Positions 1-21,970 of a stretch of DNA of 27,757 bases are shown here, in pieces (position 1 is the stretch's first letter; the number at the start of each line of letters is the position of its first letter). The notes beneath the pieces are model-generated. The model was not told where the DNA came from, ran no database searches, and saw only the letters and a program-made list of their open reading frames with translations. The position numbers and the translations under genes were made by a program. Origin of the DNA: a virus; IMG/VR virus record IMGVR_UViG_3300044491_001486, positions 1 through 27,757 of that record. One strand, 5' to 3'.

Positions 1-3000
1 GCTGGTGCTGCTAATATTGTTTCACATGGCTTTACAGAAGCTGTAACAGGAAGTGCTTGGCTATATAATTCAACTGCTACTGATGCTACAGGATTAACAA
101 GTGCTGGAACATATTATGTTAGACGTAGTACTGCAAATCAAGTAACTCTACACCCAACTGCACAAGATGCACTTGATAATACCAATCAAATTATTGTAAG
201 TGGCGGTACAGGTACTCAAACATTAAAAGATGCTACTTGGGATGATAGTGTTGGAGCACTTTCAGGATTTTGGACTGGCGATGCAATACTACCACGTAAA
301 AGTGTAACAAGACGTGAAGGCGACACCATGACAGGTGCGTTGACATTACATGATCATCCACAGCCATTTGCAGGAGCAGGAACTCCACAAGGTGCAGATG
401 ATTTACAGGCAGCAACAAAATATTATGTTGATGCACAGCAGTACAGTAGAAGTGAAAACATTTATGTAAACATCAACGGTGATGATTTACAAACAGAAAC
501 ACCTCCGGGTTTGGCTGGACGTAGCGAGAAGTATGCTTACAAAACAATTGCCGGAGCATGTTTACGAGCTGAAAGATTACAGGAAGCAGCAGAGATTGAT
601 ATTGGACCATACGTACAAACTCTTACGTTTACAGACGGCGGCGGATTGCAAAATGGTAAAATTACAAACTATTCAAGTAACGGTTATACAGCGCCAGCAG
701 TTGCAGCTACTACAACAGTAACAGCAATCAATACTAATAAACAAGCAATTATTGATCAAACTATTGCATTTATTGCAACAACATATCCTACCTTTGTTTA
801 TAGTGAAGCGGTGTGTAGAAGAGATTTAGGACTAATACTAGACAGTATTGGAAAAGATATTCTTGCAAGTACAGTAAGTGTAAAACACAATTATTTAAGT
901 AGATTTGCAGGCTTGCGCTACTTTAGTAATGCTAGTGGCGAAGTTGCAATATCTCAAGCAGGCGGCGGGCAGTATACCGAAACGGTCGCAGCAATTAGTT
1001 TTGCTAAAACTACTGCACTAGGATTTATTGCAACTGCACTTGGTGGTGGGTTTGCTTCCGATCAATGGTATCTAGCATCAAGTGCTAGATTTGATGATGT
1101 TTTAAACACTATTGACAGTAGCAGTGCTGATCCAACATTAGTTGAAGCTAGTAATAATTATAAAGTATATATTAGTAGTGGTAATAATAAATTTTTAACA
1201 CAGGCAGGCGATCCAACTGAAGACGAACCAAACATTGATATTTTTCCTGGTAAAATTATTAGAGGTAAGAAAAGTGGTGCTGTTGGTGTTGTTCAAGAAT
1301 ATAGTAGAGGTGTCGATACAGTTGGTACACCGGTATATGATACTATCGAGGTTAAACTACTACTACCAATTGATTTCATTGAAGAAGAAGAAGTTGAATA
1401 TGGCGCCTTTGTTAAAAAGCAACAAATTAGTATACGTATTGAATCAGGTACATATGAAGAACAACTGCCAATTAGATTACCTGCTAACGTAAGTATCAAA
1501 GGAGACGAATTTAGACGAGTCCTAGTGCGTCCTGCAGCAGGCATGAGTCTAAGTCCATCAGCTAACACATTCTTTTACAGAGATGCTACAATAGATGGCA
1601 ATGTTACTGCAACTGGCGGTGAAGCATATGTAAACGATCTTACAGGTAATACTGACGGTTACTATGGTAGACATTACCTAACTGATCCATCAACAGCATT
1701 AAGCATTAGTAATTTTGGTGCAACTAATCCAGGTAAATTTAACGAAGCAGCAGACTTGATTAGTCTAAACAGACAGTTTATTATTGATAGAACAATTAGT
1801 TATATTGTTGCAACGTATCCTAGTTTAGTATACGATGAAGCAAAATGTCGTAGAGATACAGGATATATTGTAGACGGTATTGAATCTGATTTACGCAAAG
1901 GCGGCAGAATACAAAGTGGTATTAATCAAAAATCATATGCTGCAAATGTTGTTCCGGGGCAAGAAACTGAAACAGCAGCAGCAATCAATAATATTGCTAC
2001 TATTATTACAAGTGTACTAGCTCAAACAGCATACGCTGGTGCTGGCGGTAATACAGGTCAAGTTGTAAATGCTAACTTAACAGCCGAAACTAATGCAAAC
2101 ACAAATGCAAGCGCTCTAGTAAGTTTTGTATCTTTTGCGTTTGATGCGGGCTACAATCCAGCCAAAGACAACAACGAAATGGATATGTTCCTGTGTAACG
2201 ATAACACTATTATTAGAAATATTACAGCACAGCGACAAGGTGGCTTTATGATGGTGCTAGATCCAGAAGGTGCTATCTTTACACGTTCGCCATATGTACA
2301 AACCGGATCTTCATTTAGTAGAAGTATTAATGCTAAAACCTTTGCAGGCGGTATATTTATTGACGGTTATTGCTACAACATGCCAGCTACAGTTATCCAA
2401 GGCGGCAACAGCGATCCTTTCCGTATTCAAATTGAAGCACCAACTACAAGTATTTTAGGACAACGTAAACCTAATCTTCCTTGTAGTTTCTTTGAGTTTG
2501 GCAGACGTTATCAAGTTAACGCTATTGTTGATTATGTTGCAAATAACGGCAGTGGAAAAGCTACTGCAACACTTGTACTAGACAGTGCAGCTAATGGTGG
2601 CGCAGGTTTAGACGACGACATTGACTCAGCAGGTGGACCAATTGATATTGTTTTACAAGGTGCTGGTAACAAAAGTATGTTAGCAAACGACTTTACACAA
2701 GTTAACGATTTAGGTTATGGCGTAGTTGTTACAAACAACGGACTTTCAGAACTTGTTAGTGTGTTTACATACTATGCGCACACAGGCTACCTATCATTAA
2801 ATGGTGCCCAGATACGTTCGCTTACAGGTAACAACAGTTATGGTAACTACGGACTGGTTGCAGAAGGTAGTGATCCTGATGAAGTTGCAAAATCTATTTC
2901 ACTTGCACAAGACTTAACACAGCCTGTTAAAATATTCTCAGTTGATCAAGAAATTGAAATTACTGGCAACAGTGCTACACCAGCACGTAACGCAGTAATT

Positions 3001-6000
3001 AGGCAATACGATACTGTAACAGGAAATGTTGCAAAAGCAACAGTTATCTTCAATGACGACAATGATACAAACAGTATTCTAAGTGTAAACAGACATATTA
3101 CTGCTACAACACGGTACGACTATGCAGTAAACGACACAGATCCTGTAGCAATTGATAGTGTAGTAAATGCAAATGCTACAAACAACGGAACAGCATATGT
3201 AATTGGAACGATTGGAACAACAGACTGGACTACTATTGGTGCAGCAAGTAACACAGTTGGTCTAGAATTTACAGCGACAGGAACAGGAAGTGGTTCAGGT
3301 ACAGCATATGTAAGTTTAGGCGCACCAGTAAGTATTACTAATAGAGACTTTGGTGCTGTAAAAGGCGTACAACGTGCGTTTATTTACGATACTACAAACT
3401 ATCCACTTAATGCTTCGCAACTTGAAATCCATCATGCTGATAGTGAAGAAACATTCCAGCCATACGAAGTTATCAACGTAAGTGACTCAGGCATAACTAT
3501 TCCAAGTGATTATGTAGATGGTACACTCACAGACGATATTGGTTCCGTAGGACTAATTGGTAGTAAAGTATGGAGACTTGAATTTACTAGTGGAACAGGC
3601 GGAGGTGTTGCTACAGAAACAACTGGTCTACAGTTTAACGTTGCACATGCTACAAACGCTGTACTAACAAGTCAACAAAACGTATTTGTAAATGGCGTTG
3701 ATAGTAGTACCGTTACTAGACCAAGTACAGCACTTATATTCAACGAACAAGAAACTGTAACCTACAGAACACTAGCATTTGAAAATACTATTACTGGCGG
3801 TATACCAGTAGTAGGAGCACAAACTAGAATTACAATTGATGATAACTTTGATTATGTTGATCTAGTTGTAAACAATACATTTGCAGCACAGGCTCCAGCC
3901 ACTTATAGTTTAAGCGGTGGTACAACACTAGGTAATACACAAGGCGATACTCACATTGCAGTAAGTACAGTTTTAAGTGCAAACGATCAAGCTCGATTAA
4001 ACTCAAGTGACGTTGATATGATATTTGCATGGCAAGGTAAAACACATATTATTACCGATTATCAATTAGTAACTGACAGCGGCACAGGTACACAGTTTGG
4101 TATTATTAGCTTTACAGACAAGTACAACATTAGTGATACATATGCTGGAGCAGGACTAGCAGCTAGAGCAAGTAGTGCAGCAGGTAATAATATTACACTA
4201 CAAGCAGGCTTACAATCAGCTGAGACTGGTAATATCACAGTTAATATCAGTACATGTAGAGCTACATCACATGACTTCTTGGATATTGGTACAGGCGGAT
4301 ACAACACTAGTAACTATCCTGATAGAATTTTTGGCGGTCCAAAAATTGCAGCAGTTACTGATGAAGAAAGTTTAGACAGTGAAGGCTTTGCAAGTAAAGC
4401 ACAGGTACAAGAACGTAGCAGAGGACGCTGTTTCTTTGCAAGTACAGACCAAGACGGTTTCTTCCGTGTAGGTAGATTCTTTACAGTTGATCAGGGTACA
4501 GGTAGAATTACATTCAACGCTGCACTTGTTCTAACAAACATTGACGGTATTGGATTCAAACGTGGTGTACGTGTAAACGAGTTTAGTGCAGATAGTACAT
4601 TTACAAATGCTACAGCAGACGCTGTACCAGTTGAAACAGCAATTGAAGGATACATAGACAGACGCTTAGGTATGGACCGCAACGGTACAGTACTAGCTGG
4701 CGCTGAAATTATTCCACAGTCAACTGGCGGTTTCTTAGCACTATCAGGTGCAGTACCAATGGCAGGTGATCTGCGTATGGGCGGTCAACAAATCAACGAC
4801 CTTGCTACACCAACTAGCGGAAGTGATGCAGCTACAAAAGCATATGTAGATGCAGGCGACGAAGCATACGATACACTAGCTGAACTTGAAGATACTGATA
4901 TTACATCTCCAGCAGACGCTTCTTTCTTAGTATATGATCTGTCAGCAACTAATTGGATAGATGCAGTGTTTGATACAGACGTTGCCAACAGTGATTTTAG
5001 CATAACACTAGATGGTACAACTGGTCTTCTAGAAGGACAAATCAACGCAGGTGCTATTGTTAACGCAGACATAAATGCAAGTGCAGCTATTGCACAGAGC
5101 AAACTTTCTTTAAGCGATGCTACAGCAGCAGCAACCGCCGGGGCAGCCGTAAAAGGTATAGCAAGTTTTAACAATGCAGACTTTGGTACAGCAAGTGGAT
5201 ATGTAAGCATTAAAGCACTTGGTGTAAGCAATGCACAACTAGCTGGTAGTATTACAAACGAAAAACTAAGCAACAGTTCGATTACGTTTGGAGACGCATC
5301 GTCAACTGTGGCAGTTGCATTAGGCAACGCAGTTACTATCCAAGGCACTGCAAATGAAATAAGTGTAAGTGTTGCTGACTCTTCACCGGTTGTAGGTTCG
5401 CCAACCTACACAATTAGTTTACCAAATAAAATTGCAGTTGATGTTAATGGCGATGTTTACAACGGTACTACACTAATATTAGATGTTAGTACAGGTGAAC
5501 TAACTGGTAACGCCGATAGTGCTGATCAAGTCAAAACAATAAACCGATCTACTAACGCAACACATTATCTTACGTTTGTGGATAGTGCAAATGCCTCCGC
5601 AGCAAACGAAACAATATACACTGACACTGGCGTAGCATATAATCCAAGCACAAACAAACTAACAATTGGTGGCGATATTGCAGGCGGCGGCAACTTAACA
5701 CTAGCAGCAGCAAAAACTGTAACTGCTCCAGGTGGATATAGAGGTGCAGGCAACGGCAGTGGTACCGACAACGGAAGTACTATTGGTACAAGCTCAGATA
5801 GATTCAACACTGTGTACGCACAAACATTCAACGGTACTGCAACAGAAGCATTATATGCTGACTTAGCAGAAAACTATGTAGGCGATAGTGCATACGAGCC
5901 AGGTACTGTACTAATATTTGGTGGTGCTGAAGAAGTTACTACAACTAATACAAAATCTGATCGTAGAGTTGCTGGTATTGTAACAACTAATCCAGCACAC

Positions 6001-6234
6001 TTAATGAATAGCGCACTAGAAGGCGAAACAGTAGTTGGTGTAGCATTACAAGGTAGAGTTCCGTGTAAGGTATTAGGAAAAGTAGAAAAAGGCGATATGT
6101 TGGTAACAGCAGCAAAAGAAGGATATGCTATTGTTAATAACACTCCGGGCGTTGGACAAGTACTTGGTAAAGCAGTTAGTACTAAAGACGATGACGGCTA
6201 CGGAATTGTTGAAGTAGTGGTAGGGAGAGTATAA
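1..6234 (+). CDS. giant tail-fibre/adhesin protein, 5'-partial
   Basis: The reading frame is open from base 1 with no stop, so the gene starts left of the window; about 2077 residues are visible. An internal ATG at 328 lies in the phrase GDTMTGALTL, a typical fibre repeat rather than a start. Visible parts: a duplicated module (nt 742-852 and 1774-1884), a beta-helix-like stretch around nt 1430-1610, a Gly/Thr/Ser-rich unit around nt 3180-3310, a second fibre unit near nt 4759-4850 (MAGDLRMGG, then DAATKAYVDA), and a C-terminal domain starting near nt 5845 (YADLAENY, VAGIV, GRVPCKV, KGDMLV). That C-terminal domain recurs in marine T4-like fibres and resembles the peptidase-G2/intramolecular-chaperone type; this likeness is from memory. 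It ends in TAATG shared with the next gene. Probable role is host recognition at the distal tail. Virion fibre is well supported; the exact fibre is unknown. Confidence 0.82.
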   Translation, partial: AGAANIVSHGFTEAVTGSAWLYNSTATDATGLTSAGTYYVRRSTANQVTLHPTAQDALDNTNQIIVSGGTGTQTLKDATWDDSVGALSGFWTGDAILPRKSVTRREGDTMTGALTLHDHPQPFAGAGTPQGADDLQAATKYYVDAQQYSRSENIYVNINGDDLQTETPPGLAGRSEKYAYKTIAGACLRAERLQEAAEIDIGPYVQTLTFTDGGGLQNGKITNYSSNGYTAPAVAATTTVTAINTNKQAIIDQTIAFIATTYPTFVYSEAVCRRDLGLILDSIGKDILASTVSVKHNYLSRFAGLRYFSNASGEVAISQAGGGQYTETVAAISFAKTTALGFIATALGGGFASDQWYLASSARFDDVLNTIDSSSADPTLVEASNNYKVYISSGNNKFLTQAGDPTEDEPNIDIFPGKIIRGKKSGAVGVVQEYSRGVDTVGTPVYDTIEVKLLLPIDFIEEEEVEYGAFVKKQQISIRIESGTYEEQLPIRLPANVSIKGDEFRRVLVRPAAGMSLSPSANTFFYRDATIDGNVTATGGEAYVNDLTGNTDGYYGRHYLTDPSTALSISNFGATNPGKFNEAADLISLNRQFIIDRTISYIVATYPSLVYDEAKCRRDTGYIVDGIESDLRKGGRIQSGINQKSYAANVVPGQETETAAAINNIATIITSVLAQTAYAGAGGNTGQVVNANLTAETNANTNASALVSFVSFAFDAGYNPAKDNNEMDMFLCNDNTIIRNITAQRQGGFMMVLDPEGAIFTRSPYVQTGSSFSRSINAKTFAGGIFIDGYCYNMPATVIQGGNSDPFRIQIEAPTTSILGQRKPNLPCSFFEFGRRYQVNAIVDYVANNGSGKATATLVLDSAANGGAGLDDDIDSAGGPIDIVLQGAGNKSMLANDFTQVNDLGYGVVVTNNGLSELVSVFTYYAHTGYLSLNGAQIRSLTGNNSYGNYGLVAEGSDPDEVAKSISLAQDLTQPVKIFSVDQEIEITGNSATPARNAVIRQYDTVTGNVAKATVIFNDDNDTNSILSVNRHITATTRYDYAVNDTDPVAIDSVVNANATNNGTAYVIGTIGTTDWTTIGAASNTVGLEFTATGTGSGSGTAYVSLGAPVSITNRDFGAVKGVQRAFIYDTTNYPLNASQLEIHHADSEETFQPYEVINVSDSGITIPSDYVDGTLTDDIGSVGLIGSKVWRLEFTSGTGGGVATETTGLQFNVAHATNAVLTSQQNVFVNGVDSSTVTRPSTALIFNEQETVTYRTLAFENTITGGIPVVGAQTRITIDDNFDYVDLVVNNTFAAQAPATYSLSGGTTLGNTQGDTHIAVSTVLSANDQARLNSSDVDMIFAWQGKTHIITDYQLVTDSGTGTQFGIISFTDKYNISDTYAGAGLAARASSAAGNNITLQAGLQSAETGNITVNISTCRATSHDFLDIGTGGYNTSNYPDRIFGGPKIAAVTDEESLDSEGFASKAQVQERSRGRCFFASTDQDGFFRVGRFFTVDQGTGRITFNAALVLTNIDGIGFKRGVRVNEFSADSTFTNATADAVPVETAIEGYIDRRLGMDRNGTVLAGAEIIPQSTGGFLALSGAVPMAGDLRMGGQQINDLATPTSGSDAATKAYVDAGDEAYDTLAELEDTDITSPADASFLVYDLSATNWIDAVFDTDVANSDFSITLDGTTGLLEGQINAGAIVNADINASAAIAQSKLSLSDATAAATAGAAVKGIASFNNADFGTASGYVSIKALGVSNAQLAGSITNEKLSNSSITFGDASSTVAVALGNAVTIQGTANEISVSVADSSPVVGSPTYTISLPNKIAVDVNGDVYNGTTLILDVSTGELTGNADSADQVKTINRSTNATHYLTFVDSANASAANETIYTDTGVAYNPSTNKLTIGGDIAGGGNLTLAAAKTVTAPGGYRGAGNGSGTDNGSTIGTSSDRFNTVYAQTFNGTATEALYADLAENYVGDSAYEPGTVLIFGGAEEVTTTNTKSDRRVAGIVTTNPAHLMNSALEGETVVGVALQGRVPCKVLGKVEKGDMLVTAAKEGYAIVNNTPGVGQVLGKAVSTKDDDGYGIVEVVVGRV
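742..1884 (+). repeat. duplicated CRRD module within the giant fibre
   Basis: Two copies of a 37-residue segment occur about 1 kb apart, at nt 742-852 and 1774-1884. Shared residues include IID.TI, ATYP, VY.EA, CRRD and a closing ILDSI or IVDGI. The copies are diverged at the nucleotide level, so this is an old intragenic protein-domain duplication rather than a recent DNA repeat. Confidence 0.75.
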
Positions 6235-6477: not shown

Positions 6478-8115
6478 ATGGCAAGTAGATTTCCACTAAT
6501 ATTAGATGAAACAAACAATCAGTTAAGAGAACTGCCAGTTGGTGACGATCTTGATCTTACCGGCAACAATTTAACTGGATTGTCCTCACTAAGCACAACA
6601 GGCGGCATTACCGCAGGGGGTACATTAACCACACCGCTTGTGTTAGCAACTAATGCAACAGTTAGCGGAACAATTGAAGCACTTACTTATACTGTTGGAG
6701 GATTACCGTTACTAGAACAAGTTAGTTTTAACAATCTACTAGATGCTCCAACTATTCCTGTAGATGTTAATCAGTTAGCAGACACAGATGGGTTATTGGG
6801 CGGTGGATTTAGTGGTGATTATAATGACTTAATTAACACACCAACTATTCCAACAGATATCAATCAACTTGGGGATAACGATAATCTTATACCAACAGAC
6901 CTTGCTGATCTTACAGACAACAGCAGTTTATTAGCAGGCGGTACATTTGAAAGTTTAGGAGATGCATTTACATTCGACGGCAGAGCCGATCAACTAGTAG
7001 TTGTAAATGCTACTGAAGAAAACTTAACTACTATTACCACTGCAAGTATTTTAAATGCTTTAACTTCTGGACAGGTTACAGGAGCATTAGGATTTACACC
7101 TTACAATGCTACTAACCCAGATGGATTTATCAATACTGCAATAGGTATTACAGATGCTTTAGGTTACACACCATACAATAACACTAACCCAGCTGGATAT
7201 ATCACAGGTATCGCCGAAGCAGATGTAACAACTGCCTTAGGATATACTCCATACAACGGCACTACTAACCCTAATGCTTATATTAATGCTAGTGAAGTTG
7301 TAACAGCAATTGGATATACACCATATAATGGTGCAACCAACTTACTAGGATTTTTAACTTCTGAAACTCAAACACTTGATGATGTGTTAACATTAGGTTC
7401 TACTACAACACAATCAATTGGTACAGGAGCATTAACAAGTACTGGACAAATTATTGCTACCGATTTGCAACTCAATACAGGCGGCATTAGTTTTAATCAT
7501 TCTAATGCATTTAGTATTGATACCGCAGGCGGTAACGCTATGACCATCGGCGGCACCGGTAACTTAACATTAGATTCAGGAACTACTATTGGTGTGAATG
7601 CAACACTAACTCCTGCTGCAAGTGTTAACCTAGGCGATAGCAGTAATCAGTTTTTAGAAGGTTACTTCAGCGGAAATGTTAGCGTAGGTGGGATTGCAGC
7701 AAACTCAGCCAATTTACAAATTGACAACAACAACGCAACAGGAACACTCACACTTGAATCAGGCAGTGGAATACGTGTTCGTGCTCCTTATATAGAACTT
7801 GCACAAGGCGGTGGCGCATCAGATGCACAAAGACCTACAAGCCCATCAGAGGGTACTTATCTGTACAACACCACCCACGGTTACCATCAAATGTATCTTT
7901 CCAGTAGAGATTTTGTTAACGCAGCAGGCAACGGTATTGTTACCGGTGGTTGGGCTACATTTATTCCACCTTTTGGAGGCGAGCCAAACGCAGACGATAT
8001 TTTTGTAGGAATGCTTGCAATAGCCGACGGGGTTGCCTGGGATCCGATAGGTGATGGTTCCGAAGCATTGATGGTATTTATAAATAACACTTGGAATGAA
8101 GTTCTAACAAACTAA
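6478..8115 (+). CDS. tail fibre protein with YTPYN repeats
   Basis: A 545-residue fibre-like protein rich in Thr, Asn, Gly and Ala. The N-terminus (FPLILDETNNQLRELPVGD) precedes short units including two PTIP.D.NQL segments. Residues about 204-292 carry four YTPYN units (next entry). The middle has beta-rich segments (TLDSGTTIGVN, VNLGDSSNQFLEGYFSG) and the C-terminus has a compact globular end (GMLAIADGVAWDP, MVFINNTW). The pattern is that of trimeric phage fibres with a shaft and a distal tip. ATG at 6478 is preceded by an AAGGA-type ribosome site and by a late promoter. Fibre identity is good; receptor and position on the virion are not visible. Confidence 0.8.
   Translation: MASRFPLILDETNNQLRELPVGDDLDLTGNNLTGLSSLSTTGGITAGGTLTTPLVLATNATVSGTIEALTYTVGGLPLLEQVSFNNLLDAPTIPVDVNQLADTDGLLGGGFSGDYNDLINTPTIPTDINQLGDNDNLIPTDLADLTDNSSLLAGGTFESLGDAFTFDGRADQLVVVNATEENLTTITTASILNALTSGQVTGALGFTPYNATNPDGFINTAIGITDALGYTPYNNTNPAGYITGIAEADVTTALGYTPYNGTTNPNAYINASEVVTAIGYTPYNGATNLLGFLTSETQTLDDVLTLGSTTTQSIGTGALTSTGQIIATDLQLNTGGISFNHSNAFSIDTAGGNAMTIGGTGNLTLDSGTTIGVNATLTPAASVNLGDSSNQFLEGYFSGNVSVGGIAANSANLQIDNNNATGTLTLESGSGIRVRAPYIELAQGGGASDAQRPTSPSEGTYLYNTTHGYHQMYLSSRDFVNAAGNGIVTGGWATFIPPFGGEPNADDIFVGMLAIADGVAWDPIGDGSEALMVFINNTWNEVLTN
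7088..7352 (+). repeat. four YTPYN shaft repeats
   Basis: Four units of about 24 residues read LGFTPYNATNPDGFI, LGYTPYNNTNPAGYI, LGYTPYNGTTNPNAYI and IGYTPYNGATNLLGF. This repeat is common in side-tail-fibre shafts of tailed phages. The DNA copies differ at many third positions, so they are not a CRISPR or a recent tandem repeat. Confidence 0.85.
8079..8086 (+). promoter_or_regulatory. late promoter TATAAATA inside the end of the fibre gene
   Basis: An exact TATAAATA occurs 42 nt before the ATG at 8129, within the coding end of the 545-aa fibre gene. It sits in the palindrome TATTTATAAATA, so the minus strand also reads TATAAATA. The position before a virion gene supports use on the plus strand; the codons also encode Phe-Ile-Asn, so chance is possible. 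Confidence 0.5.
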
Positions 8116-13240: not shown

Positions 13241-13771
13241 ATGCTTATGAAAACAGACGAACTCGGTATCCCACGGTTTACAAATAAAGACTTAGTTAAC
13301 ATGATCTATACTGGTCATGTTGACAAGTGTCATGTAGTTCTGTGTGAGCAATCGGATGATGTAGATAAGTTTAATGAGGCTATGGAAGAACAGGGTCTAG
13401 ACAAACTACAAAAGTATATTCCATTAGATGTAAACAAAAAGACTTTTGACGGTGTTTGTCAAAGTGAATGGTTTATGCCTGACGAATACAAAAACATTAA
13501 CGTATATGAATACGTATTAGGCAAAGCAGAAACACCCTGTCCACAGCATGTACAAGATCGTATATGGCAAGAATTAGATGCTTTTAGAGAACGTGGCATG
13601 AAAGACTTACTACGCTATATGATCTATCTTGTAGATTTTATGCGTGAGAATAATATTGTGTGGGGTGTAGGTAGAGGTAGCTCTGTAGCAAGTTATGTGT
13701 TGTATTTGATTGGTGTGCATCGTATAGATTCAATTAAATATAACTTAGACTGGCGAGAATTTTTACGTTGA
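13241..13771 (+). CDS. stand-alone DNA polymerase III alpha-like GRGS fragment
   Basis: A 176-residue protein. Residues about 110-176 resemble the start of the DnaE palm region: EL.AF...G, then VWGVGRGSSVASYVLYLIG with G144-R145-G146-S147, then a D.IKYNLD..EFLR ending. In bacterial DnaE this is followed directly by the PD.D.D catalytic acids; here the protein stops just before them, and the next frame is an unrelated enzyme. It therefore has the nucleotide-phosphate-binding GRGS motif but no polymerase active site. Residues 1-110 are not recognised (VDKCHVVLCEQ, KYIPLDVNKKTFDGV). The TGA overlaps the TTG start of the radical-SAM gene (TTGA). Start could also be ATG 13247. Function is unknown; a decoy, a regulator of host Pol III, or a nucleotide sensor are possibilities only. 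Confidence 0.68.
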   Translation: MLMKTDELGIPRFTNKDLVNMIYTGHVDKCHVVLCEQSDDVDKFNEAMEEQGLDKLQKYIPLDVNKKTFDGVCQSEWFMPDEYKNINVYEYVLGKAETPCPQHVQDRIWQELDAFRERGMKDLLRYMIYLVDFMRENNIVWGVGRGSSVASYVLYLIGVHRIDSIKYNLDWREFLR

Positions 13772-15639
13772 ATAATATATACCTAATACAAGCAAGCGAT
13801 GCATATGGACCTAATAAGTTTTTGCCTTTGGCAATAGCATATCAATGGTGCTATGGTAAAAACGATAATTGGAATCTTGTAGACACTGTTATTGAAAAAC
13901 CTGTTCCAAGTGAATATGTTGCTGACATGATAGAACCAAAAATGGTTGTAATGAGCAGCTATATTTGGAACTGGGAATACAATAAACAACTAGCCGCAGA
14001 AGTAAAACGTGTTTATCCTGATTGCGTTATTGTTACAGGCGGTCCGCAAATTGACAAACGTGACAAAGAGTTCTTTGACAAGTATCCTATGTTTGATGTA
14101 GCAGTACACGGCGAAGGCGAAAATGCTATGAAAGAAATACTTGCCAGACCAATTGGCGAGTATGATGACATTGTGCATACACAAACACGTACACATATGC
14201 CTAAACCTGCAATGCGTAGAAAAAGTATAGCAGATATTCCAAGTCCTATACTAGAAGGCTTTTATGAGCCTATTATGGCAAAATATCCTAAAGATACTAT
14301 GTGGCAAGTTACTTGGGAAAGTTTACGTGGGTGTCCATATCATTGTGCATTCTGCGATATCGGCGACAGCTATTGGAACAAACTTACACTGTTTGACATG
14401 GAACGCTGTCGACAAGAAATTGAATGGATGGGCAAGAACAAAATTGAATACGTAAGTGTTTGCGATAGCAATTGGGGATTGTTAAAACGTGATATAGAAC
14501 TTACGCAAATGGTTTTAGATACAAAAGAAAAGTACGGCTATCCTATGTGGTTTGATGCTACATGGGCAAAGAACAATGTAGATAGAAACTTTGATATTGC
14601 ACTCATGAATAAACGTGCGCCTGTAAATATTTTCAAAGGTGTTACGTTTGCTATGCAAAGTTTTAACGATACAACACTAGTTGCTAGTGAACGTTTTAAC
14701 ATTAACGAAGAACAAGTAGCAGAATATTTGCAAAAGTATAGAGAAGAAGATATTCCTACATACAGTGAACTTATTTGGCCAATGCCGGAAGAAACTTATG
14801 ATAGTTTAAAAAGCAATGTACAAAAACTAATTGATTTAGGACAAGACAGTTATCTAATGATACATCCGTTGGTTATTACATATAATGCTACAATGGGTGA
14901 TAGTAAATATCAAGAAACATATGGCATGGGTGTAAAGGAAATACCACTGGATACATTTTACTTGCGTGACACTGATATGGAAAAGTATATCTTTGAATAT
15001 ACAGGCGCAGTAGTAAGCACACGCACAGCAGATTGGGATACAGTTCTACAAGGATTTATGTTTAGTTGGGTAAGTATCTTAATGTACTACTATGGATTTG
15101 GACATTATCTAGCAAAATATCTAAGCAAACAAGGAATACGTGAAGTAGACTTTTTTGAAGATTTGCGCAAATGGATAGTTGACAATCCAGATACTTTGCT
15201 GTATAGTGAATATAAAGCTACAGAACAACACCATGTAGATACATATTATAACCAAAAGTTGTGGGGAAGAAAAGTACACGGCGAAGATGACATTTATTGG
15301 GAATACAAAGGTGCTAGTGCTTGTGTGCTACACGATAACAAAGAACAATATGCAAATGAGCTTGTAAAATTTTTAGAAGAGTGCTATAACATAGATAATG
15401 CAGAAGAAGTAGTGTCGTTAAATTTAGCCATGACAAGAGATAAAACACAAACATACCCGTTTGTAAAAACAACAAATGCACAGGTTGCACAGGATATGTT
15501 GGGTATAAATAGTGATACACTTTTAATTGATCACTATGATAAAGAACAAATTGATCCGCTATTGTGGTATCAAAAGGCTTATCATTGGGATAGGAAAAGC
15601 CGATACTGGCGATGTACTGCCCAGGCAAATGATAAGTAA
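13768..15639 (+). CDS. B12-binding-domain radical SAM protein
   Basis: A 623-residue enzyme. Residues about 1-135 have the Rossmann-like layout of B12-binding domains (VVMSSYIWNW, VIVTGGPQ, VAVHGEGENAMKEI) but lack a clear DxHxxG ligand motif. The radical SAM cluster CPYHCAFC is at C189, C193 and C196, in GCPYHCAFCDIGD. The C-terminal 250 residues are helical and Trp/Tyr-rich with no known fold that I can name. The family uses a [4Fe-4S] cluster and S-adenosylmethionine to make a 5'-deoxyadenosyl radical; B12-type members often methylate or rearrange unreactive carbons. Substrate is unknown. The start is TTG in TTGA, overlapping the upstream stop by two bases. An electron donor is needed; a ferredoxin lies 5 kb downstream. 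Confidence 0.85.
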   Translation: MNNIYLIQASDAYGPNKFLPLAIAYQWCYGKNDNWNLVDTVIEKPVPSEYVADMIEPKMVVMSSYIWNWEYNKQLAAEVKRVYPDCVIVTGGPQIDKRDKEFFDKYPMFDVAVHGEGENAMKEILARPIGEYDDIVHTQTRTHMPKPAMRRKSIADIPSPILEGFYEPIMAKYPKDTMWQVTWESLRGCPYHCAFCDIGDSYWNKLTLFDMERCRQEIEWMGKNKIEYVSVCDSNWGLLKRDIELTQMVLDTKEKYGYPMWFDATWAKNNVDRNFDIALMNKRAPVNIFKGVTFAMQSFNDTTLVASERFNINEEQVAEYLQKYREEDIPTYSELIWPMPEETYDSLKSNVQKLIDLGQDSYLMIHPLVITYNATMGDSKYQETYGMGVKEIPLDTFYLRDTDMEKYIFEYTGAVVSTRTADWDTVLQGFMFSWVSILMYYYGFGHYLAKYLSKQGIREVDFFEDLRKWIVDNPDTLLYSEYKATEQHHVDTYYNQKLWGRKVHGEDDIYWEYKGASACVLHDNKEQYANELVKFLEECYNIDNAEEVVSLNLAMTRDKTQTYPFVKTTNAQVAQDMLGINSDTLLIDHYDKEQIDPLLWYQKAYHWDRKSRYWRCTAQANDK

Positions 15640-15656: not shown

Positions 15657-16046
15657 ATGGCAACCCAAGGTCGTAAAGTATATAGAACAGCAAGAGGCAA
15701 ACAAGTCGATCTCGATCTGTTAATTAGTCGTAATGAATTAACACCGGCAGTTGGAAACCATAGAGTAAATGCACGTGGTGACGAACTAGGACAAGGTGGC
15801 AAAATTGTTAGAAAAAGAGAAGATGTACTCAAGGATTACTATCAAGCACAGCCCGGCATGCGTGACGAAACTGTATTAAGTTCAGACGCAAAAATAACAC
15901 AAGCCGAGCAAGAAGAATTTGAAGCATTTGATGAAGAACCGATTTTAGAAAAGCCTGTAGAAAAACCTAAGGCTAAATCTAAAGCAGATCCGCTTGACGA
16001 ATGGATCGAAGACGAAGAAGGCAATTTTATTAGAAAAGGTGAATAA
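15657..16046 (+). CDS. acidic-tailed conserved phage protein, unknown
   Basis: A 129-residue protein with a basic N-terminal half (GRKVYRTARGKQVDLDLLIS, NELTPAVGNHRVNARGDELG) and an acidic, lysine/proline-rich C-terminal half (EEPILEKPVEKPKAKSK, DEWIEDEEGNF). An AAGGAGA ribosome site precedes ATG at 15657. I recall similar proteins in marine T4-like phages, next to the cochaperonin gene, but know no function. The TAATG overlap with the next gene indicates coupling with the gp31-like cochaperonin. The charged tail could bind a capsid or chaperonin partner; that is conjecture. Confidence 0.65.
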   Translation: MATQGRKVYRTARGKQVDLDLLISRNELTPAVGNHRVNARGDELGQGGKIVRKREDVLKDYYQAQPGMRDETVLSSDAKITQAEQEEFEAFDEEPILEKPVEKPKAKSKADPLDEWIEDEEGNFIRKGE

Positions 16047-16426
16047 TGAACACAGAAGGAATGGGTGGCGGATTTAAAATTACGCCAAAAGTTAAAGGCA
16101 CACTAAGGCCTATTAGCAATCGAGTTATTGTAAGCAATATGCATTTTGGAGAACAAAAGACAGCTTCAGGACTTATTCTTACTAGTGACGATGGTGATTC
16201 ACGTGGTATCTATCCACGTTGGGGCCAGGTCCATGCAAAAGGACCAGAAAATGATGACGACTATAATATCGGCGATTGGGTGTTGGTAGAACACGGACGT
16301 TGGACTCGCGGCATTGATATTGACGAAGGAGACGGAGAAAAAACTCTGCGTATGGTAGAAGCAGAAAGTATTCTAGCGTTTAGTAATGAAAAGCCCGAAG
16401 GCGTACAAATGGCAGAGGAAATATAA
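16046..16426 (+). CDS. GroES-like cochaperonin (gp31-type)
   Basis: A 126-residue protein with GroES-fold features: an N-terminal strand GTLRPISNRVIVSNM, a mobile-loop equivalent FGEQKTASGLILTSDD, a WGQVHAKGPE strand and the GDWVLVEHGRWTRG hairpin, with a C-terminal strand LRMVEAESILAF. In T4 gp31 replaces GroES and lets GroEL fold the major capsid protein. Sequence similarity is to GroES rather than to T4 gp31, so the functional link is inferred. It begins in TAATG with the upstream gene and ends in TAATG with the next. It fits a capsid-folding role together with the host GroEL. Confidence 0.75.
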   Translation: MNTEGMGGGFKITPKVKGTLRPISNRVIVSNMHFGEQKTASGLILTSDDGDSRGIYPRWGQVHAKGPENDDDYNIGDWVLVEHGRWTRGIDIDEGDGEKTLRMVEAESILAFSNEKPEGVQMAEEI

Positions 16427-16845
16427 TGAGCCAAGTTGATTTAAATCGTTACAAAGATTTTGTTCGCGAAGTGACTAGTAACGAGTCACTATCAAGTATG
16501 CAAATGTATAATCGCATAGTTGATATTGAAACAACTGAAAGCAAAATGAAAGTAAACATGGCGCAACTTATGACTGGTGCAATCGGCATTAGTGCAGAAG
16601 GTGGCGAGTTTATGGAAATTGTAAAGAAGTGTGTATTCCAAGGTAAACCAATGGATGAAGATACACAGTACCATGCTATGCGTGAACTAGGCGACATTAT
16701 GTGGTACTGGATGAACAGTTGCAGTGCATTGGGTATTGACCCTAATGATGTTATTGCAGAGAATGTTAAAAAACTGGAAAAACGTTATCCTGGTGGATCG
16801 TTTGACCCGTATTACTCAGAGAATCGAAAAGATGGAGATATTTGA
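16426..16845 (+). CDS. mazG: MazG-like nucleotide pyrophosphohydrolase
   Basis: A 139-residue single-domain protein. The metal-binding motif ExxE is at E58-GG-E61 (AEGGEFMEIVKKC) and ExxD at E87-LG-D90 (ELGDIMWYWMN), then VIAENVKKLEKRYPGGSF as in MazG-type all-alpha NTP-PPases. These enzymes hydrolyse NTPs or (p)ppGpp-related nucleotides to monophosphate and pyrophosphate. Phage MazG is thought to adjust nucleotide or alarmone pools; (p)ppGpp hydrolysis is debated. The ATG overlaps the upstream stop in TAATG. A second, different MazG-like gene lies at 17770. Identification is firm from the motifs; the substrate is not. Confidence 0.82.
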   Translation: MSQVDLNRYKDFVREVTSNESLSSMQMYNRIVDIETTESKMKVNMAQLMTGAIGISAEGGEFMEIVKKCVFQGKPMDEDTQYHAMRELGDIMWYWMNSCSALGIDPNDVIAENVKKLEKRYPGGSFDPYYSENRKDGDI

Positions 16846-17271: not shown

Positions 17272-17780
17272 TCGACTTAGAAACATTAGACGTAACACCA
17301 CAGGCAACTGTGCTTACAGTAGGGGGTGTAAAGTTTAATCCGTTCGACGATAGTGAACCTCACAGCGAATTTTATTACAAACTAGATTTAGATAGCCAAG
17401 ACCGTAGTGTAAATGATAGCACTATTGCTTGGTGGGCAACTCAAGATCAAAAAGTGCAAGATGAAGCATTTGGCACTGAAGGTAGAGAACATCAAGACGT
17501 GTTCTTAGACATCCTACCCAAATGGATGGTAGGTGTTGACGTACTGTGGGGACACGGTTACGGATTTGATATTACTATTATCGAAGACATGTTACGACAG
17601 CGTAGCAAACCTATTCCGTGGCAATTTTGGCAAGTGCGTGATTCACGTACATTATTTTCAATGGCAAAAGTAGATCCACGTAAAGCAATGCAAAGTGACT
17701 TACACAACGCATTAGCAGATGCTTACTTCCAAGCAAAAGGTGTACAAATGGTATACAAGGAGCTAGGCATTGCAAAATAG
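17253..17780 (+). CDS. dexA: DexA-like 3'-5' exonuclease (DEDDh)
   Basis: A 175-residue nuclease. DEDDh residues are visible: D8 and E10 (MIDLETLD), D106 (GHGYGFDITIIED) and H151 with D156 (HNALADAYF). The layout and short length fit the T4 DexA/Rv2179c-like family, which degrades DNA or RNA from the 3' end. In T4 DexA is thought to help degrade host DNA or edit ends. GAGGAAAAG upstream supports ATG at 17253, though the ATG codons at 17262 and 17268 would also be in frame. The gene runs into the next by 11 nt. The exonuclease call is firm; the substrate is inferred. Confidence 0.82.
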   Translation: MPIHAMIDLETLDVTPQATVLTVGGVKFNPFDDSEPHSEFYYKLDLDSQDRSVNDSTIAWWATQDQKVQDEAFGTEGREHQDVFLDILPKWMVGVDVLWGHGYGFDITIIEDMLRQRSKPIPWQFWQVRDSRTLFSMAKVDPRKAMQSDLHNALADAYFQAKGVQMVYKELGIAK

Positions 17781-18048
17781 TCCTATTAACACATTACAGC
17801 AACTAATGATTATTACAGCAGAAGAGTGCGGAGAGCTTACACAACGCTGTTCAAAAATTGTACGCAAGTTCGAGTACAAAGAAGAAATTACAGACGAGCA
17901 ACGTGTAAAATTACTTGAAGAAATTGGCGATGTACAATGTATGATTGAACTTATGATAGATCACGGAATTGTATCGCATCACGATGTGGCTACCCGCAGT
18001 AATTATAAACGAGATAAACTAAAGAAGTGGAGTACATTAATTGAATAA
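17770..18048 (+). CDS. second MazG-like pyrophosphohydrolase, small form
   Basis: A 92-residue protein starting at TTG 17770, with AAGGAG 7 nt upstream inside the exonuclease gene, which decides this start. The ExxE motif is E19-CG-E22 (EECGELTQRCSKI) and ExxD is E51-IG-D54 (EEIGDVQCMIELMIDHG), followed by a charged RSNYKRDKLKKW tail. It is a compact member of the MazG/phosphoribosyl-ATP-pyrophosphohydrolase superfamily. It has no clear sequence identity with the MazG at 16426 outside the motifs, so they probably act on different nucleotides. Overlaps both neighbours. Confidence 0.75.
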   Translation: MQNSPINTLQQLMIITAEECGELTQRCSKIVRKFEYKEEITDEQRVKLLEEIGDVQCMIELMIDHGIVSHHDVATRSNYKRDKLKKWSTLIE

Positions 18049-18735: not shown

Positions 18736-19646
18736 AAGACTTATGGGTAGAGAAGTATCGGCCTAAAACAGTTGAAGGGTATGTATTTAGAGATGAAGCA
18801 CAACGTAATCAAGTTAATACATGGATTAAAGATAAAACTATTCCTCATTTGCTCTTCAGTGGTAATGCTGGAATTGGCAAAACTACTCTTGCTAAGTTGC
18901 TTTTTAATGAGCTTGATACTAATCCGCTAGACATACTAGAGATTAACGCAAGTCGTACAAACAGTGTTGACGATGTACGTGACAAGATTGTTTCGTTTGT
19001 ACAGATGATTCCATTTGGTGACTTTAAGGTTGTACTACTAGACGAGGCTGATTACTTGTCGCCAAACGCACAAGCGGCATTGCGTGGTGTTATGGAGGAG
19101 TATCATACTACAGCACGTTTTATTCTAACGTGTAACTATCCTAATAGAATTATTCCTGCTATCCACAGCAGATGTCAAGGCTTCCATATTGCTAAGATTG
19201 ACCAAACAGAGTTTACAGCAAGAGTTGCAGAGATTCTTATTACAGAAGGTGTAACTCCAGACTTAGATACACTTGACACATATGTAAAAGGCACCTATCC
19301 AGACTTACGTAAGTGTATCAACACAGTGCAAATGAATTCAACAGACGGTGTGCTAGTAAAGCCCAATGAAGGCGATAGTGGTGCTGCCGATTGGAAATTA
19401 GAAATGGTTGAACTGTTTAAGGCAGGCAAGATTTCAGACGCACGTAAACTATTATGCGGTACAGTACGTGCCGAAGAAATGGAAGAGATCTATCGTTGGT
19501 TGTATGACAACATTGAATTGTTTGGCAGTGAAGATCAACAGGACAAAGCTGTGCTAATTATCAAACAAGGCTTAGTAGATCACACACTAGTTGTAGATCC
19601 TGAAATTAACTTAGCAGCAACGCTTATCAGGCTCGGGCAACTTTGA
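18732..19646 (+). CDS. 44: sliding-clamp loader large subunit (gp44)
   Basis: A 304-residue AAA+ ATPase. WVEKYRPKTVEGYV is the family N-terminus, Walker A is GNAGIGKTT (44-52), Walker B is VLLDEAD (101-107), and the arginine-finger SRC motif is at 146-148 (HSRCQGF). A helical C-terminal domain follows. Length is near that of T4 gp44 (319). It loads the gp45 clamp onto primer-template for the phage polymerase; in T4 it works as a 4:1 complex with gp62. No gp62 is visible beside it: the next gene, in TTGA overlap, is a different protein. The clamp-loader call is strong. Confidence 0.9.
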   Translation: MKDLWVEKYRPKTVEGYVFRDEAQRNQVNTWIKDKTIPHLLFSGNAGIGKTTLAKLLFNELDTNPLDILEINASRTNSVDDVRDKIVSFVQMIPFGDFKVVLLDEADYLSPNAQAALRGVMEEYHTTARFILTCNYPNRIIPAIHSRCQGFHIAKIDQTEFTARVAEILITEGVTPDLDTLDTYVKGTYPDLRKCINTVQMNSTDGVLVKPNEGDSGAADWKLEMVELFKAGKISDARKLLCGTVRAEEMEEIYRWLYDNIELFGSEDQQDKAVLIIKQGLVDHTLVVDPEINLAATLIRLGQL

Positions 19647-20632
19647 TATACTTAATTGATCAAAACAAAAAATGCTTAGTACTTGATCAAAATCTAAAAC
19701 CTATGAAACCGTTTGATGACTATAGGCATGATGCTGTAATGTATCTTATGGATACAGTTTCTATGCCGCTAGTTGTACAATTTGATAACATAAATGATCC
19801 GCCAGACGATGAAGAACACAATGTAACACATATACTAGACCACTTGGGCACAGATAAAGTAAGTTGGTTTAGTTTTGAGCCTGTGCATGTTTTGCCAAAA
19901 GATGCAATTGACTTTATGAGAAAATACTTAGGCAGACTTGATAATCATTATTGTAGTGAATATGAATTTGCCTACAGTTTAGGTATTGATTTTGAGTTCT
20001 TTGTTCCTAATAAAGGACTTGAAAAATACTTCGATCATATGAGTTACATTGACACATATCTTTGGCATGAATCTACACAAATAGTTTTACCAGAGATTGA
20101 TAAAACTTTTGAGAAGACTTTCTTCTGTCCAAACAATGCTGACAAGATTCATCGACGGTTACTTGCAAAGCACTTGATACGCTATCATAAGAATGAAAGT
20201 CTAGTTACATACGGCGACTGGCAAGAACATCCTATGATTGACCAAGAATTATTAGAAGCAGCATATAAAAATAGTTTTTGCACAGTAGTAACAGAAACGT
20301 TATATAACAAACAATATGCTAACTTTAGCGAAAAAACAATAGATCCAATGGCAAACTACAGACCTTTTGTTCTAGCGGCACCGCCGTTTACACTGCGTCT
20401 AATGAAAGAACTTGGGTTTAAAACTTTTGATGCTTGGTGGGACGAAAGTTATGACCAAGAACTAGACGATAAAAAACGTATAAGAAAATTAAAAAATGTT
20501 CTAGACTTTATAGCAAGTATGTCGTATAATGATAAACAACTAGTACTTGTTGAGATGGACGAAATACTACAACACAACAGGCTGCATATTAAAAATTTAG
20601 AAAAGGTATTCTATGACATATATTGTAAATGA
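19643..20632 (+). CDS. glycosyltransferase-like protein, unknown
   Basis: A 329-residue protein starting at TTG 19643 (TTGA overlap with gene 44; no good ribosome site). The C-terminal half contains [11 protein letters not shown], then [35 protein letters not shown] and WWDESYD. This TE...SEKT.PIA..PF order recurs in uncharacterised phage and bacterial proteins and recalls the nucleotide-sugar-binding TEK region of GT10-like GT-B glycosyltransferases. The N-terminal half ([30 protein letters not shown]) looks Rossmann-like. It is not gp62 by length (T4 gp62 is 187 aa) or sequence. Sugar transfer to DNA, fibre or host surface is possible but unproven. Confidence 0.5.
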
Positions 20633-20954
20633 TGCATGTATTAAATGTAAACACATGGACTGTGTAGAGGTTTGTCCAGTAGATTGTTTTTACGAAGGTG
20701 AAAACATGTTAGTTATTAAACCAGATGAATGTATCGATTGCGGTGTATGTGAACCTGAATGTCCAGCAGATGCTATTAGAGCAGATACAGATCCGGGCAT
20801 GGAACAATGGGTTGAATTCAACGATAAGTGGGCAAGTGTTTGGCCCAACATTACTCTAATGCGCCCTGAAGATGTTCCTCCAGATGCAACAGACTGGCAC
20901 GATGTAGAAGGTAAAATGGAACACTTTAGTGAAGCACCAGGAAAGGGAGATTAA
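20613..20954 (+). CDS. fdxA: FdxA-type 7Fe ferredoxin
   Basis: A 113-residue ferredoxin. Nine cysteines fall at 9, 12, 17, 21, 25, 40, 43, 46 and 50; the CxxCxxC-P order ([12 protein letters not shown]) binds a [4Fe-4S] cluster, and the first group (CIKCKHMDC, then CPVDC) fits the [3Fe-4S] site of FdxA-type ferredoxins. The sequence [18 protein letters not shown] is very close to alphaproteobacterial FdxA. The C-terminal extension ([13 protein letters not shown]) is also of that type. Length matches bacterial FdxA (about 107-113). Overlaps the previous gene by 20 nt; AAAAGG precedes the ATG. It is an electron carrier of likely host origin, possible donor for the radical SAM enzyme. Confidence 0.88.
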
Positions 20955-21160: not shown

Positions 21161-21314
21161 TCTAGTACGTGTAAATGTGCTAGAAGAAGAAATACAGTAT
21201 TACAAAACTTTATTGCAGCCACATGACACTGGTCATATACATACTACAATAAATTTTTTAAGCCAAAGATTATCGAATTTAAAAGGAGAATTAGCTGAAT
21301 GGCCGTTCGATTAG
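21135..21314 (+). CDS. 59-aa coiled-coil protein, conserved type
   Basis: Frame from ATG 21135 to TAG 21312-21314, overlapping genes on both sides. The product begins MSNQTLVNDLVRVNVLEEEI and continues with QYYKTLLQPHDTGHIHTTI, then FLSQRLSNLKGELAEW. The central LLQPHDTGHIHTTI phrase recurs in small T4-like marine phage proteins I have seen. It is mostly helical, coiled-coil-like and acidic. It is too short for routine length cut-offs. Function unknown. Its tail overlaps the thyX start by 16 nt. Confidence 0.6.
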   Translation: MSNQTLVNDLVRVNVLEEEIQYYKTLLQPHDTGHIHTTINFLSQRLSNLKGELAEWPFD

Positions 21315-21970
21315 TAAGTTATAGTAAAGCAACAGACGAATTTGCAGCAGAAGGATTAACAGATCTGCAAGAGCTTATTGCGTTTTGTGCAAAAGTATCA
21401 AATCCGCAAGCACAAATTAGCACAGAAACAAGCGAAAGGCTTATCAAGTATCTAATCAAACATGCACATTGGTCACCACTTGAAATGGTTAATGCTGTAT
21501 TAGAAATTGAAACAACACGAGATATTGCACACCAAATTGTGCGACATCGTAGTTTTGCGTTTCAAGAGTTTAGTCAACGTTATGCTAACCCTGCCGAAAT
21601 GGGTGATCAATTTGTATTACGTGAATGTAGATTACAGGATACAAAGAACAGACAGAACAGTATTGATACTGATGATCGCGAATTAACTCGCCTGTGGGAA
21701 ATTAAACAACAGATGGTAATCAATGCAGCCAAAGAAGCGTATGAGTGGGCTATTGATAATGGCATTGCTAAAGAGCAAGCACGGGCTGTTCTACCAGAAG
21801 GTAATACTAAAACAAGATTATATATGAATGGCACTATTCGTAGTTGGATTCATTATATTGATTTACGGAGCGCCAATGGAACACAAAAAGAACACATGGA
21901 AATCGCTATCCAGTGTGCTAAAGTCATCTCAGAAATTTTTCCAATGGCAAATGGCTTATCCAAACTATAA
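21299..21970 (+). CDS. thyX: flavin-dependent thymidylate synthase ThyX
   Basis: A 223-residue enzyme with the ThyX signature RHRx7S at R82-H83-R84 and S92 (RHRSFAFQEFSQRY). It also has the SPLEMVNAVLEIE, YEWAIDNGIAKEQARAVLP and LRSANGTQKEHMEIA segments of the family. Length is typical. It makes dTMP from dUMP with methylene-tetrahydrofolate, FAD and NADPH. Many marine T4-like phages carry ThyX, often with hosts that lack ThyA. AAAGGAG precedes ATG 21299. Together with the MazG genes it fits nucleotide supply for phage DNA. Confidence 0.93.
   Translation: MAVRLVSYSKATDEFAAEGLTDLQELIAFCAKVSNPQAQISTETSERLIKYLIKHAHWSPLEMVNAVLEIETTRDIAHQIVRHRSFAFQEFSQRYANPAEMGDQFVLRECRLQDTKNRQNSIDTDDRELTRLWEIKQQMVINAAKEAYEWAIDNGIAKEQARAVLPEGNTKTRLYMNGTIRSWIHYIDLRSANGTQKEHMEIAIQCAKVISEIFPMANGLSKL

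Follow-up and report, generated by a model that had tools for sequence, protein, structure and literature searches.

Enzymes of the TokK/CysS type, which are cobalamin-dependent radical SAM C-methyltransferases, are known from bacterial antibiotic pathways. In CysS, Trp75 lies below the cobalt like Trp76 in TokK, Trp188, Trp206, Phe238, and Trp271 line the substrate site or make contact with it, and His371 is a proposed SAM contact for cobalamin methylation (PMC12846815; PMC13331322). The W215 of TokK has been reported to bridge SAM and cobalamin (PMC9692996). Reports also exist on radical SAM genes in T4-like phages. Pelagimyophages carry cassettes of such genes within their host recognition clusters (PMC7029224), and one T4-like viral genome contains 12 of them (PMC5332604), so the presence of radical SAM genes in such phages is not in itself new. 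A literature search for cobalamin-type radical SAM enzymes in phages found no paper on the TokK/CysS type.

The gene described here lies in a 27,757-nucleotide stretch of DNA from a marine T4-like phage (IMG/VR record IMGVR_UViG_3300044491_001486, positions 1 to 27,757), referred to below as the window. It is an accessory gene at positions 13768–15639 of the plus strand, and with high confidence its predicted product is a cobalamin-dependent radical SAM C-methyltransferase of the TokK/CysS structural type, here called the methylase.

Domain structure and active site of the methylase

The methylase reading frame is open throughout and encodes 623 amino acids from a TTG start codon; most relatives have Met at the position matching this start. 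The motifs named in the preliminary description of the sequence are all present in it, namely GCPYHCAFC with the cysteines C189, C193, and C196, VTGGPQ (residues 89–94), and HGEGE (residues 114–118). The cluster motif CxxxCxxC (C189-P-Y-H-C193-A-F-C196; 14332–14355, plus strand) was found in 100 of 100 family members inspected. Pfam recognizes a B12-binding domain (PF02310, residues 49–124, 1.9e-8) and a Radical_SAM domain (PF04055, residues 185–348, 4.3e-9), both above the curated cut-offs. When the domain limits of CysS (PMC12846815) were transferred by alignment, the protein was divided into a cobalamin-binding Rossmann domain (residues 1–177; 13768–14298), a radical SAM domain (residues 178–442; 14299–15093), and a C-terminal domain (residues 443–623; 15094–15636), all on the plus strand. 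The two Pfam domains, together with 17 close viral homologues and the 80 loci returned by a family-profile scan of viral contigs, argue that the reading frame is not a chance one. Compared with a relative of 96% amino acid identity (L001), the DNA differs at 31, 11, and 175 first, second, and third codon positions, which indicates strong purifying selection.

A single-sequence search of solved structures returned TokK (4e-68) and CysS (5e-43). With a profile of 37 family members, the PDB matches were TokK at 1.4e-151 over profile positions 17–582 and CysS at 2.1e-100, the alignment extending to TokK residue 609, well into the C-terminal domain. The AlphaFold model of the methylase (mean pLDDT 92.4) matched TokK with a fold Z of 37.0 (609/623 residues, 2.5 A) and CysS with a Z of 39.5 (572 residues, 3.6 A), and the next-best entry had a Z of 24.3. 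The fold match spans residues 1–623, and the B12-binding Rossmann, radical SAM, and TokK-like C-terminal domains are all present. Pfam domains, profile, and fold thus bear out the earlier view that the phage encodes a radical SAM enzyme of the B12 type. The C-terminal domain, which had been described as 250 residues of a kind not known, has about 180 residues; the structure prediction that had been proposed for it, together with the profile, identifies it as the C-terminal domain of TokK and CysS, and it is therefore not novel.

The best curated family was NCBIfam NF033712 (KedN5-family B12 radical SAM C-methyltransferase; E 1.3e-57, residues 56–472), but the methylase scored 195.5 bits where the curated cut-off is 700 and is therefore not filed under the KedN5 subfamily. 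PHROGs offered no convincing family, and a search of 50,697 phage records yielded a single distant match of 23% identity. Three models of like fold, with 16–17% identity, were found in a library of predicted viral structures.

Residue equivalences were taken from an alignment that reproduces the published CysS and TokK numbering. W67 (13966–13968, plus strand) aligns with CysS Trp75 and TokK Trp76, the residue below the cobalt, and H366 aligns with CysS His371, whereas Q180, I198, S230, and D263 replace CysS W188, W206, F238, and W271. In TokK, the positions of I198, D263, and H366 are those of W215, R280, and Tyr381. Because W67 and H366 are conserved while four pocket residues are replaced, the catalytic machinery appears to be kept and the substrate to differ. 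The replaced pocket also led us to reject the notion that the methylase is the TokK (carbapenem) or CysS (cystobactamid) enzyme itself; going by these residues, its substrate is probably new, neither a carbapenam nor a cystobactamid intermediate. Across the three viral groups A (which includes the window), B, and C, residues I198, D263, and W266 do not vary, H366 and Q180 vary little, and position 230 is a small residue throughout. The more distant viral members of group F mostly retain the TokK-like W and often the R. One substrate probably serves the whole of groups A, B, and C.

The site behind the DnaE-like fragment

The methylase gene lies downstream of a tail block whose tail-fibre protein (1–6234, plus strand, open at the window start) matches the PHROG tail fiber annotation at 8.4e-47. 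Directly upstream of it is a core gene for a DnaE-like fragment (phrog_11127; 13241–13771, plus strand, 176 amino acids), and the TTGA overlap reported between the stop of that gene and the start of the methylase is exact. The DnaE fragment is found just upstream of the methylase in all 17 closest loci. On the 3' side is another core gene (phrog_14844; 15657–16046, plus strand), which comes immediately after the DnaE fragment where phages have no methylase. Of at least 584 loci matched in a scan with this fragment, the best 80 were evaluated, 77 of which had enough sequence. In 70 of these 77, the DnaE gene is followed within about 30–70 bp by the homologue of the 15657 gene, without a methylase, and only 7 contain the methylase. 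The same gene order with an empty site is found in MIJ3, a Pseudomonas jumbo phage of the PA5oct type. Conversely, groups B and C have the methylase with no DnaE gene nearby.

The two genes have also had different histories, as their identities are discordant. One relative (L001) is 96% identical to the window in the methylase and 74% in the DnaE fragment, and another (L030) is 58% identical in the methylase and 96% in the DnaE fragment. On a tree of the DnaE fragment, the presence or absence of the methylase has to change 11 times, and supported branches force at least 7 of these changes. Given the empty sites, the methylases without DnaE, the discordant identities, and these changes, the methylase is accessory cargo, present or absent within a conserved backbone, at a fixed site after the DnaE fragment and near the tail-fibre block. 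That the two genes form a co-functional replication unit is very improbable, in spite of the overlap and of their being adjacent or one gene apart in the group A loci that have both; the empty sites of the 70 loci and of MIJ3, groups B and C, and the changes on the DnaE tree all speak against it. The link drawn earlier between the DnaE fragment and the methylase as a unit does not hold, and the co-occurrence check proposed for it found the pair not conserved in related phages. More generally, a gene overlap with a neighbour is no proof of joint function when most relatives show an empty site.

Many large phages have the DnaE-like fragment as a conserved gene that stands by itself. All aligned copies terminate at one point past a GRGS segment, and the fragment may have a non-polymerase role of its own. 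Among other genes of the window, a MazG gene (16426–16845) varies in presence among relatives, and a second reading frame 0.9 kb past it (17770–18048) is MazG-like by eye. In this phage group, ThyX (21299–21970) and a PF00303 thymidylate-synthase protein (c29; 8865–9728 in L186, and in the L012 and L022 types) seemingly interchange near a clamp-loader gene. A ferredoxin (20613–20954; phrog_8732) was considered as a dedicated electron donor and rejected, because 30 of 38 loci without the methylase also have it, which makes it a core gene. It may still pass electrons to the methylase, but like ThyX it is uninformative, being present with or without the methylase.

Viral distribution, neighbouring genes and candidate substrates

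A family-profile scan of bacterial and archaeal genomes returned 13 weaker loci, with about 31% identity for the best of them. Groups A, B, and C come out together in a maximum-likelihood tree as a clade supported at 100/100, and this clade holds no cellular member among the small cellular sample taken into the tree, few having been sampled because the scan needs exact peptide patterns. In the sample of the tree, the viral sequences are therefore a virus-only clade of TokK/CysS-type enzymes with its own conserved pocket. The related contigs are all metagenomic and mostly incomplete. Terminase matches in 8 of 27 contigs tested, and genes for tail sheath and tape measure proteins next to the group B methylase cluster, identify the methylase-bearing contigs as phages, and the group B genes together with the tail fibre of the window place the methylase near tail genes in both settings.

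The protein family that recurs most around the methylase is represented in the window by a gene at 19643–20632 (plus strand), whose model (mean pLDDT 85.4) has a GT-B glycosyltransferase fold. Its fold matches include the glycosyltransferase of phage HY126 (Z 11.8), T4 BGT (Z 11.6; Foldseek 6.4e-5), and an alpha1,3-fucosyltransferase (Z 11.3). By sequence, an alignment of the family gave no noteworthy Pfam family, no NCBIfam family, and no PDB sequence match, so the GT-B assignment comes from fold comparison only. The family has 64 members in methylase loci, with up to six copies per phage, and members overlap the methylase or sit within 42 bp of it in L032–L035, L044, L077, L050–L053, and the 275-kb contig G030. 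It was found in 6 of the 9 contigs that bear the methylase and in 1 of the 16 without it (p 0.003, a value that overstates independence because phages share ancestry). Three methylase-bearing contigs (G004, G005, and G029) have no GT-B member; in its place they have nitroreductase genes and genes for small radical SAM proteins. In the window, the GT-B-like gene is the sole sugar-type gene identified, 4 kb from the methylase. Methylase neighbours in groups B, C, and F include NAD-dependent epimerases (NDP-sugar), UDP-glucose/GDP-mannose dehydrogenase, DegT aminotransferases, GT8/GT9-like and other glycosyltransferases, NeuB, an MptE-like protein, an arginine-deiminase/amidinotransferase-like protein, and SPASM/twitch radical SAM enzymes.

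Radical SAM genes are also concentrated in islands. The jumbo phage contig G030 has the same DnaE backbone with an empty site, and three members of the wider family lie at other places in it. Its island adjoins structural genes and, over about 45 kb, has about 16 CxxxCxxC proteins, of which three are B12-dependent, along with a GT-B protein overlapping one B12 radical SAM gene, an epimerase, and a UDP-sugar dehydrogenase; the whole contig has 18 PF04055 matches. This radical-SAM-rich jumbo phage island falls within positions 8000–67999 of the 275-kb contig IMGVR_UViG_3300021959_006010 (L176–L178). Directly upstream of the methylase in L025, L026, L030, L036, and L031 is the gene for c22, a small radical SAM protein with a length of about 285 amino acids; some group A loci have it placed between DnaE and the methylase, and L031 has it in another backbone. 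The nitroreductase (c21) that often accompanies it in group A was considered as BluB, the cobalamin lower-ligand synthase, and rejected; it had no NCBIfam BluB match and just weak matches to reductase models.

The analysis itself shows the class, fold, and motifs of the enzyme, its accessory status, and its gene neighbourhoods; methylation, a sugar substrate, and a role at a surface are what we infer for the methylase. By homology, a first SAM would methylate cob(I)alamin held base-off over W67, and a second SAM on the [4Fe-4S] cluster (C189/C193/C196) would give rise to the 5'-deoxyadenosyl radical. This radical would abstract a hydrogen from an sp3 carbon of the substrate, and the substrate radical would pick up the methyl from methylcobalamin. 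The substrate would be a sugar, nucleotide sugar, or glycan intermediate on which the GT-B glycosyltransferase family also acts, in other phages a fuller sugar-biosynthesis set would handle it as well, and the product would be a C-methylated glycan on the virion or host surface during infection. A substrate of this kind is favoured because sugar and glycan enzymes recur near methylase relatives in independent contexts. Against it, GT-B folds include the T4 DNA glucosyltransferases, so the fold cannot tell glycan from DNA. Taken as a whole, with optional cargo and surface role included, the proposed C-methylation of such a substrate has in our judgement a little short of an even chance of being right. 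The wider proposal is more tentative; it is possible that the virus-only subfamily adds C-methyl branches to sugars for phage-directed glycans, within host-recognition islands rich in radical SAM genes, which number up to about 16 over 45 kb.

The preliminary description had suggested modification of DNA bases, with which the GT-B protein could act as a DNA glycosyltransferase. The T4-like character of the phage and the resemblance of the GT-B model to T4 BGT, among others, are in keeping with this. However, PF00303 (thymidylate synthase/dCMP hydroxymethylase) is absent from the large group B and C contigs of 119–195 kb, being present in some group A contigs, and a single phage may combine as many as six GT-like copies with epimerases and a dehydrogenase, which suits glycans better. 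A search for Tet_JBP gave zero matches, but as its control was also silent it carries no weight; in most contigs no homologue of the dCMP-hydroxymethylase or TET type was seen. The absence of PF00303 and the multiple glycosyltransferases beside sugar-biosynthesis genes weaken the DNA-base reading, which we hold to be quite improbable. A phage or host protein or peptide is an unlikely but better candidate, with the SPASM/twitch radical SAM enzymes and nitroreductases as a peptide- or tail-fibre-modifying set. The methylase is near tail fibres, c22 is directly upstream of it in two backbones, and c22 and c21 occur in 13 and 12 of 34 methylase loci, respectively, vs. none of 38 without it. Twitch/SPASM radical SAM genes are plentiful in the islands of several carrier contigs, and those co-located show weak matches to peptide maturases. 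No precursor-peptide-like partner was found, however, the closest solved relatives work on small molecules, and the sugar enzymes recur in independent contexts. Those same relatives bring in a small-molecule product of a natural-product-like phage pathway, made or tailored for instance on carrier-bound intermediates, since the CysS substrate is a pantetheinylated intermediate (PMC12846815) and TokK was crystallised with one. The group C and G030 islands are rich in radical SAM, TauD-like, Asp/Asn-hydroxylase-like, and arginine-deiminase-like genes. Yet a non-exhaustive look noticed no carrier protein, NRPS, or PKS genes near any member, and the methylase is nearly alone in group A loci, which leaves such a product rather improbable. 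The GT-B family, which has no Pfam name, is a testable partner of the methylase.

Comparison with known systems

The nearest described enzymes share the architecture of the methylase and differ from it at the substrate site. TokK (carbapenem C6 methylase, PDB 7KDX/7KDY) has the same three domains, a Trp below the cobalt, and the CxxxCxxC motif at about 25% identity, but its W215, R280, and Tyr381 are Ile198, Asp263, and His366 in the methylase, which is a phage gene with no carbapenem genes. CysS (cystobactamid methylase, PDB 9N1B–9N1D) likewise shares the three domains, the cluster cysteines, Trp75 as W67, and His371 as H366 at about 22% identity, with Q180, I198, S230, and D263 standing where it has W188, W206, F238, and W271. 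The KedN5 family (NF033712) is the best curated match, yet the score is far below its cut-off. The marine T4-like phages have similarly optional radical SAM genes beside tail fibres and glycan genes, and in the relevant passages of those reports (PMC7029224; PMC5332604) neither the cobalamin-dependent TokK/CysS type nor its pocket comes up. Overall, a virus-only TokK/CysS clade with a different conserved pocket points to a C-methylated product that marine phages would make in the course of infection, and to phage dependence on host cobalamin.
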